Assembly: GCA_016209015.1 (NCBI GenBank)
Contig: JACQWY010000019.1
Coordinates: forward strand, 124,001-188,000
From: Gammaproteobacteria bacterium
GTDB lineage: Bacteria > Pseudomonadota > Gammaproteobacteria > Ga0077536
Direction: 5' to 3'
Length of the DNA: 64,000 bases
The notes under the pieces are model-generated. The model saw nothing but the letters and a program-made list of their open reading frames with translations. It was not told where the DNA came from and made no database searches. Shown here piece by piece: positions 21,137 through 22,083 of the stretch. Both the position numbers and the translations under genes were made by a program. Position 1 is the stretch's first letter. Each line of letters begins with the position of its first letter.

Positions 21137-21754
21137 ATGAAGATCATCCATTTCTTCGATTACAAGAGCCCGTATGCCTATCTCGCGCAGGAGGCGGCGT
21201 ATGCGCTCGCGGGCGACTACGGCATCGACGTCGAGTGGCAACCCTATACGCTCGACATCCCGGCGTACCTCGGCGCGGCCGCGCTCGATGCCGAGGGCCG
21301 CGACACGGTGCAGACGCGCAACGCGCATCAGTGGCGGCGGGTGAAATACTCGTACCTGGATTGCAGGCGCGAAGCGAATCGTCGCGGACTCGTCGTACGC
21401 GGGCCGCGCAAGATCTTCGACAGCTCGATCGCGCACATCGGATTCCTCTATGCACGCGAGCACGGCGCGTGGCGCCGTTATCACGATCACGTGTTCGAAG
21501 CGTTCTGGAAACGCGAGCTCGACATCGAGACTCCGGCGGTCATCGCGGCCGAGCTCGAGCGCGCGGGTGTTCCGGCAGCGGGCTTCACGGCCTGGCTCGC
21601 CGGCGACGGTCGCGCCGTGCACGATCGACTGCGCCGCGAGGCGGACGAGGCCGGCGTGTTCGGCGTGCCGAGCTGGCTCGTCGACGGGGAGCTGTTCTGG
21701 GGTGCGGAACGCCTCGAGCGCGTGCGCGAGCTCGTCGAACGCGCGAGAACCTAG
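21137..21754 (+). CDS. DsbA-fold HCCA isomerase / GST-kappa-like protein
   Basis: 205 residues, thioredoxin-fold with helical insertion. The start KIIHFFDYKSPYAYLA carries the SPY.YL motif of 2-hydroxychromene-2-carboxylate isomerases and kappa GSTs in place of a CxxC; GVFGVPSWLVDGELFWGAERL is the cis-proline loop and C-terminal helix. Probably a glutathione-dependent isomerase or transferase, substrate unknown. Its TAG stop (21752-21754) lies in the CTAG that begins the MITE-like element, so the element abuts but does not cut the gene. Confidence 0.85.
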   Translation: MKIIHFFDYKSPYAYLAQEAAYALAGDYGIDVEWQPYTLDIPAYLGAAALDAEGRDTVQTRNAHQWRRVKYSYLDCRREANRRGLVVRGPRKIFDSSIAHIGFLYAREHGAWRRYHDHVFEAFWKRELDIETPAVIAAELERAGVPAAGFTAWLAGDGRAVHDRLRREADEAGVFGVPSWLVDGELFWGAERLERVRELVERART

Positions 21755-21910
21755 GGAAGCTCTGAATAAGTCCATCCTGGACTTTTCAGAGCGCGGCCGG
21801 CAAGAAGCGTGGTTCTTGCCGGCCTCCCGTGAACAATCGCTTACGCCACTGTTCACGGCGGCACATCCCTGTGCCGCAGGAAGCTCTGAACTAATTCAGA
21901 GCTTCCCTAG
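21751..21910. mobile_element. 160-bp MITE-like palindromic element with CTAG ends
   Basis: Bounded by perfect 16-bp inverted repeats CTAGGGAAGCTCTGAA (21751-21766 and 21895-21910). It is built as five successive hairpins. (1) 21759-21792: GCTCTGAA/TTCAGAGC plus AAGTCCA/TGGACTT. (2) 21795-21824: a 12-bp stem GGCCGGCAAGAA/TTCTTGCCGGCC. (3) 21829-21857: CGTGAACA/TGTTCACG. (4) 21858-21877: GCGGCACA/TGTGCCGC. (5) 21879-21906: a 12-bp stem around CTAA. It has no coding capacity. The outer CTAG may be a 4-bp target duplication, as favoured by some IS5-type transposases, making it a non-autonomous element; this origin is inferred. Confidence 0.8.
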
Positions 21911-22083
21911 AGCCGGCGCGGCGCCGGCACGCGGCAACCGCGCGTCACGCGGCGCAGGAATTTGACGGTCACGAGCTCGGCCTCGATCGGCACGCGGTCT
22001 TCGGCCGCCGCCGCGCTCGCTGCTTCGACCACGACGACCGTCCGCGTCCCGTCGAGCAGATAGACGATCTCGTATTCGCTCAT
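21907..22083 (-). CDS. 58-residue small protein, unknown function
   Basis: Starts at an ATG overlapping the stop of the upstream glycosyltransferase gene as ATGA, which supports translation by coupling. The sequence begins MSEYEIVYLLDGTRTVVVVEA, has an Ala-rich acidic middle, and ends in a basic tail (FLRRVTRGCRVPAPRRL). There is no membrane segment and I recognise no domain. Its TAG stop (21907-21909) lies in the CTAG at the right end of the MITE-like element, mirroring the gene on the other side. Confidence 0.6.
   Translation of the reverse strand: MSEYEIVYLLDGTRTVVVVEAASAAAAEDRVPIEAELVTVKFLRRVTRGCRVPAPRRL

Follow-up and report, generated by a model that had tools for sequence, protein, structure and literature searches.

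A putative IS5-type MITE at the shared stop codons of two convergent genes, and its hairpin-rich repeat family

A 152-bp element lies between two convergent genes in the window, by which we mean the whole 64,000-nucleotide stretch analysed (contig JACQWY010000019.1, positions 124,001 to 188,000, of a Gammaproteobacteria bacterium). This element is very probably a non-autonomous IS5-type MITE that inserted at a YTAR target, here a CTAG that was the shared stop of both genes, and a partner transposase would have acted in trans. Underlying this reading are a repeat family with common ends and matched duplications, an orthologous site free of the element, and a scarcity of YTAR in genes.

The element, its flanking genes and the site in relatives

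The element consists of five hairpins in succession (Table 1), as the preliminary description of this DNA had stated. That description also gave it perfect inverted ends of 16 bp; the ends are indeed perfect, but they span 17 bp with CTAG and 13 bp of the element itself. As a single strand the element folds with a minimum free energy of −98.2 kcal/mol (plus strand) or −105.1 kcal/mol (minus strand), corresponding to z = −11.7 and −12.0, and none of 200 shuffles reached such low values. An Rfam search of the element returned three matches, none of them near its gathering score (the highest reached 22.1 bits where 100 is required). No intrinsic-terminator-like site was found at the element, and neither the plasmid nor the phage collection gave a match at E 1e-5.

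Table 1. Features at the insertion site, in window coordinates
Feature	Position	Strand	Basis or remark
Left gene (205 aa) with a DSBA-like thioredoxin domain; ends on the TAG of left CTAG	21137..21754	+	PF01323, E 5.9e-24
Left copy of 4-bp target duplication, CTAG	21751..21754		Sequence; family flank rule
MITE proper (putative), 152 bp	21755..21906		Orientation set as +
Left terminal inverted repeat, 13 bp	21755..21767		End comparison
Hairpin 1	21768..21784		Fold and alignment
Hairpin 2, strongest covariation (two-sided changes in 11/12 pairs)	21795..21824		Fold and alignment
Hairpin 3, two-sided changes in 7/9 consensus pairs	21828..21857		Fold and alignment
Hairpin 4, sequence well conserved across families	21858..21877		Fold and alignment
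Hairpin 5, left-end 12-mer as direct copy, opposite right end	21879..21906		Sequence and fold
Right terminal inverted repeat, 13 bp	21894..21906		End comparison
Right copy of 4-bp target duplication, CTAG	21907..21910		Sequence
Right gene, 58 aa, stop TAG in right CTAG	21907..22083	−	Homologues in sister genus

Genes were called by a custom codon-usage script rather than a standard gene finder, and the loci of other genomes were pooled for its training despite their differing GC. At this site it called exactly the left and the right gene and none in between, although some mechanical open reading frames do cross the element. The calls confirmed that each gene stops with TAG inside the CTAG on its own side. 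The right gene had no Pfam or NCBIfam match. When the element and one CTAG were removed in silico, both genes ended on the same CTAG, again as first described. Both proteins are kept whole because the insertion doubles the four target letters.

The left gene was matched in 35 of 36 genomes of the family, the window's own included, and 30 left-gene loci, among them that of the window, were inspected for a convergent neighbour resembling the right gene. Such a neighbour was present in six genomes of a sister genus (g9; L088 and L094–L098), with E values of 2.5e-10 to 3.5e-7 except for a weaker 0.003 in L094. The remaining 23 loci had no right-gene-like neighbour beyond 12- to 19-residue matches (E 0.3–0.4). 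The element was absent between the two genes in all six sister-genus genomes. Measured from the final base of the left stop, the right stop lay at −3, −3, +1, +4, +4, and +12 bases in these loci. Both stops fell within one YTAR in two of the six, L094 (CTAA) and L095 (TTAG), which is the predicted architecture of the empty site. The single tetranucleotide shared by both stops was recovered as a YTAR in these two sister-genus genomes; the exact empty site was not observed among the 58 genomes searched, which included no second genome of the window's genus.

A repeat family with YTAR duplications that mostly spares genes

A search with the 160-bp query, in which 40 of 144 candidates were scored, yielded at least 65 matching rows from the window's genome. 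Of these, 42 measure 80 bp or more and 23 are short (27–36 bp, in the palindromic ends), and most rows were 88–99% identical. With at most two mismatches, the hairpin-4 core pattern matched this genome 37 + 37 = 74 times and the end motif GGAAGCTCTGAANAAGTC 83 + 58 = 141 times, and the reversed control of each matched nowhere. The recurrence of the end motif against a control of zero indicates that the element is not a chance sequence. The exact end 13-mer was found 37 + 18 times (control, 1). Thus what was first described as a MITE-like non-coding element belongs to a multicopy family.

We read 59 stretches of this genome and then 20 more, taken from among the matches listed and representing part of all copies. 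Identical 4-bp flanks were present in 27 of the 33 full-length copies read, and 26 of the 27 were YTAR (TTAG 14, TTAA 7, CTAG 3, CTAA 2; the exception was TAAA, 1). The proposed 4-bp target duplication that keeps both proteins is therefore supported, but not a CTAG rule. Copies without CTAG flanks, which the preliminary description had named as evidence against itself, were indeed found, and CTAG-specific targeting was rejected, with CTAG on only three of 27 matched copies. The six full-length copies without identical flanks were L020 (CTAG/TTAG), L052, L065, L059, which has lost its left end, L105, which stands second in a tandem of two units, and the divergent L108. Base counts at the 26 target sites revealed no strong consensus outside the four YTAR bases.

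The target is used asymmetrically relative to the orientation of the element: read in element orientation, TTAG outnumbered CTAA by 14 to 2 in the own genome, and the counts were 1 and 6 in other genomes. A second dispersed sequence, which contains approximately GCGTAATCGGACGTTC, directly adjoins several copies (right flanks of L019, L025, L035, and L048) and is possibly another repeat supplying a YTAR. Shorter derivatives with interior deletions were also seen (L021, L060, L061, L072), and L021 and L072 retain the flanking tetranucleotide near the break.

Every YTAR reads TAA or TAG on both strands, and the earlier idea of a CTAG landing pad is therefore too narrow. CTAG is rare and can hold a double stop, as proposed, but so can every other YTAR. 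In the window (GC 67.5%) the observed counts, with the element's own sites included, were 12 CTAG, 12 TTAG, 7 CTAA, and 5 TTAA, against 192, 93, 93, and 45 expected from base composition. With the element left out, YTAR density in the window is 4.26 per kb in the stretches that separate called genes (24 sites), compared with 0.154 per kb within genes (9 sites, stops included), a 28-fold difference. Since YTAR is scarce in genes, the target rule makes insertions mostly gene-sparing. By simple logic, moreover, a landing on an in-frame TAR cannot shorten the protein, because that TAR already was a stop and is restored by the duplication. The safety of insertion thus comes mainly from the scarcity of YTAR in coding sequence. 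A palindromic double-stop target about 28 times denser outside genes gives a counted reason how IS5-type elements can fill a GC-rich genome cheaply. The window site is the extreme case, in which a single insertion preserved two overlapping stops.

The 27 matched copies divide into 9 at stop codons, 16 intergenic ones, and 2 within called genes, compared with 20, 124, and 37 of 181 background YTARs drawn from the window and the stretches around copies. The excess on stops has a Fisher value of 0.0048 (one of several contrasts tried and uncorrected). It includes L033 (TAAA), which counts as a stop case only under a one-base tolerance denied to the background; the strict count of YTAR copies only was 8 of 26 versus 20 of 181 (Fisher 0.012). 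The deficit inside genes (2/27 versus 37/181) was not significant (Fisher 0.12). Two copies with fewer than 100 bases on one side, L022 and L036, were scored intergenic. Whether other copies also sit on CTAG stops was a check proposed in the preliminary description; stop codons of any kind account for a third of the matched copies (9/27), and a double stop shared by two genes was scored for the window copy only. Where one end of a copy abuts a stop, gene and element point the same way in 11 copies (L018–L020, L027, L029, L034, L039, L045, L049, L062, L065) and opposite ways in two (L040, L053; binomial 0.022, with the double-stop window copy and L033 excluded).

By the orientation of neighbouring genes, 22 copies of the own genome were classified as 8 convergent, 14 tandem, and 0 divergent, omitting two edge cases and three copies scored inside a gene. 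Among 103 classified background YTARs, 7 were convergent, 68 tandem, and 28 divergent (37 inside genes and 41 unclassified were set apart). The convergent excess (Fisher 0.0008) and the divergent deficit (Fisher 0.0036) are uncorrected for several contrasts. The 90 loci from other genomes contained 49 unique full copies, of which 29 had identical flanks, 19 of them YTAR. Ten of the 90 loci (G008) share an assembly with JACPPA records, and copies were made unique by their flanks, the background not. After six of the 29 near an edge were dropped, 21 of the 23 matched copies lay between genes, 2 on stops, and 0 inside genes, against 1133, 83, and 794 of 2010 background YTARs; two of all full copies, irrespective of flanks, lay inside genes. 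The convergent bias was absent there (1 convergent, 11 tandem, and 6 divergent of 18 classified; 5 unclassified), and a general preference for convergent gene ends was thus rejected. Because other genomes spare gene interiors without a convergent bias, the sparing of interiors looks general, and the 3'-end preference has so far been seen in a single genome.

The IS5 link and the hairpin body

A YTAR target duplication is given for IS5 in the available text of PMC10359306 and PMC5493358, and CTAG accounts for 15 of the 24 targets listed in that of the latter. The PF01609 profile was searched in ten related genomes and gave matches in eight, of which 30 loci were kept. Four of these loci (L126, L128, L133, L147) have ends adjoining YTAR with 1–4 mismatches per 17 bp to the MITE end, similar to it and not identical. 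The same YTAR stands at both ends in three of the four, and L128 has TTAA and TTAG. The transposase is split over two frames in L128 and L147, and the L126 and L133 proteins are IS5-family transposases (NF033581, E 7.3e-101 and 2.7e-103). The agreement with the published IS5 target, and the similar ends beside YTAR at transposase loci of relatives, indicate that the element is an IS5-type MITE. A transposase with like ends, for which the preliminary description had advised a search, was found in relatives and not in the own genome. No PF01609 transposase was detected in the 65-contig draft of the window's genome, no PF05598 transposase either (the control was positive in only 3 of 14 genomes), and the best match of a protein search of the draft for an IS5 transposase had E 0.022. 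Ten of the 76 own-genome rows reach the end of the fetched stretch at a copy, and several of these are contig ends; since the genome is a 65-contig draft with contig ends at copies, the absence of a transposase is not proven. An IS5-family transposase would have acted in trans and either been lost since or be missing from the draft, and the 4-bp duplication would have returned to each gene its own stop.

For the covariation analysis, an alignment was made of 26 chosen copies from eight genomes, a subset of all copies. In it 94.8% of cells pair, and two-sided changes occur in 28 of 47 pairs. The covariation score was 0.400. Shuffling gave 0.146 on average, with none of 500 shuffles reaching the observed value, and sliding the partners gave no more than 0.121; because copies are related, this score is not a probability. 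The stems of hairpins 2 and 3 vary more than the loops and hairpin 4 do. The covariation could stem from selection or from template switching between arms. Since the interior covaries far beyond the ends, the role of the inside of a MITE becomes testable.

We searched 369 genomes sampled from the class for the hairpin-4 pattern and found it in 18, one of them the own genome, which belong to 13 families; the reversed control had no match. It misses divergent members, as G056 carries copies without a pattern match. Among the matches listed, the titled carriers are metagenome genomes whose labels read gammaproteobacterial, Thiotrichales, Pseudomonadales or Proteobacteria, and many are groundwater-derived, going by their names. 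Hairpin 5 opens with the direct copy of the left-end 12-mer. Tandem units about 124 bp apart were identified, among the matches listed, in the own draft (C54, 1–264; C59, 6654–6795) and also in the single-contig G054 (C1, 13931–14533 and 2569141–2569521).

Of 76 own-genome rows of at least 55 bits, 16 end at consensus positions 140–150; in four of these (L029, L046, L067, L105) another unit or a duplication follows, and in the remaining 12 some different sequence. Starts at 12–22 were seen in ten rows, one of them (L053) a duplication, and elsewhere inside the element six rows end and one begins. In the G008 type, 12 of 41 rows end at 140–143 and 8 begin at 10–21. The recurrent truncation points are thus the tips of hairpin 5 (~140–143) and hairpin 1 (~17–22) in two genera. 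Right-truncated own copies include L024, L030, L039, L048, L049, L051, L062, L106, and L110; left-truncated ones include L025, L054, L057, L115, L118, and L120. These truncations may be biological, or they may have arisen because hairpins disturb draft assembly.

Alternative explanations and known systems

It is scarcely credible that the structure is immobile and has long belonged to this gene pair as a structural RNA or a terminator: it folds strongly, but the site is element-free in six of six sister-genus genomes, 74 core matches occur in the genome, the flanks are identical, and no Rfam match comes near its gathering score. Some facts do sit uneasily with an IS5-type MITE, namely the failure to find an own IS5 transposase and, elsewhere, identical flanks in only 29 of 49 copies, YTAR in 19 of those 29, and stops in 2 of 23. 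The missing transposase and the breaks at hairpin tips could be explained by another YTAR-cutting system, such as a transposase that acts on single strands and recognises hairpins; the IS5-like ends would then be a convergence. We consider this very unlikely, since the end sequence and the 4-bp YTAR duplication both fit the IS5-family elements of relatives.

Two further alternatives concern the hairpins. The element might be kept at gene ends as a two-way 3'-end structure (termination, protection of mRNA ends or insulation of convergent genes) with its hairpins under selection, which is compatible with a MITE origin. The own-genome excess of convergent sites (8/22 and none divergent, against 7 and 28 of 103) and the covariation above the shuffled level would fit. 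However, other genomes show 1 of 18 convergent and 6 of 18 divergent, no intrinsic-terminator-like site was found, and selection against promoter insertions predicts the same pattern, so we regard such a role as quite improbable. Quasi-palindrome correction is template switching between the arms of a hairpin. It is possible, though we lean against it, that the covarying hairpins have no function and owe their complementarity to such switching or to recent bursts of a few sources. Bursts have happened, given that most own-genome rows are 88–99% identical, and relatedness survives the shuffle control; yet 28 of 47 pairs show repeated two-sided changes across eight genomes, and the loops and hairpin 4 vary less than the stems of hairpins 2 and 3 do. 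A bolder proposal, which we think unlikely to hold in full, is that an undescribed MITE superfamily, found across many gammaproteobacterial families, works through this five-hairpin body. A folded single-stranded stage would keep the hairpins, the truncations would be traces of hairpin-tip cleavage during copying, and the palindromic YTAR would make the element a near-harmless passenger of GC-rich genomes that settles on stops. A MITE inserted at the shared YTAR stop remains our preferred reading of the window site.

In a literature search on the topic and with the element's sequence strings, no paper was recognised as describing this family, most subscription journals lying outside the search. 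The kind of element is known, and the hairpin-rich family seems undescribed. New here are the covarying hairpins conserved across 13 families, the tandem units, and the truncation hot spots at hairpin tips, which may be artefacts of assembly. ERIC (RU-1) and Correia-type repeats are short, hairpin-forming, multicopy, mostly intergenic and common to related genera, and their target duplication is TA. By description the element resembles them in being short, hairpin-forming, multicopy, mostly intergenic, and present in related genera, and differs in its YTAR duplications. With IS5 and the IS5-family insertion sequences that encode NF033581 transposases in relatives it shares the 4-bp YTAR duplication and similar 17-bp ends, but it is only 152 bp long and geneless, with a five-hairpin interior and no autonomous partner found in its own genome. 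BrickBuilt, an IS5-related MITE of Porphyromonas gingivalis, likewise has IS5-family-like ends, no transposase, and a tandem inner unit, according to the available text of PMC4596501. Its unit is given there as 23 nt and its duplications as varying in length and sequence, whereas the element described here has a unit of ~124 bp and 4-bp duplications that are mostly YTAR.
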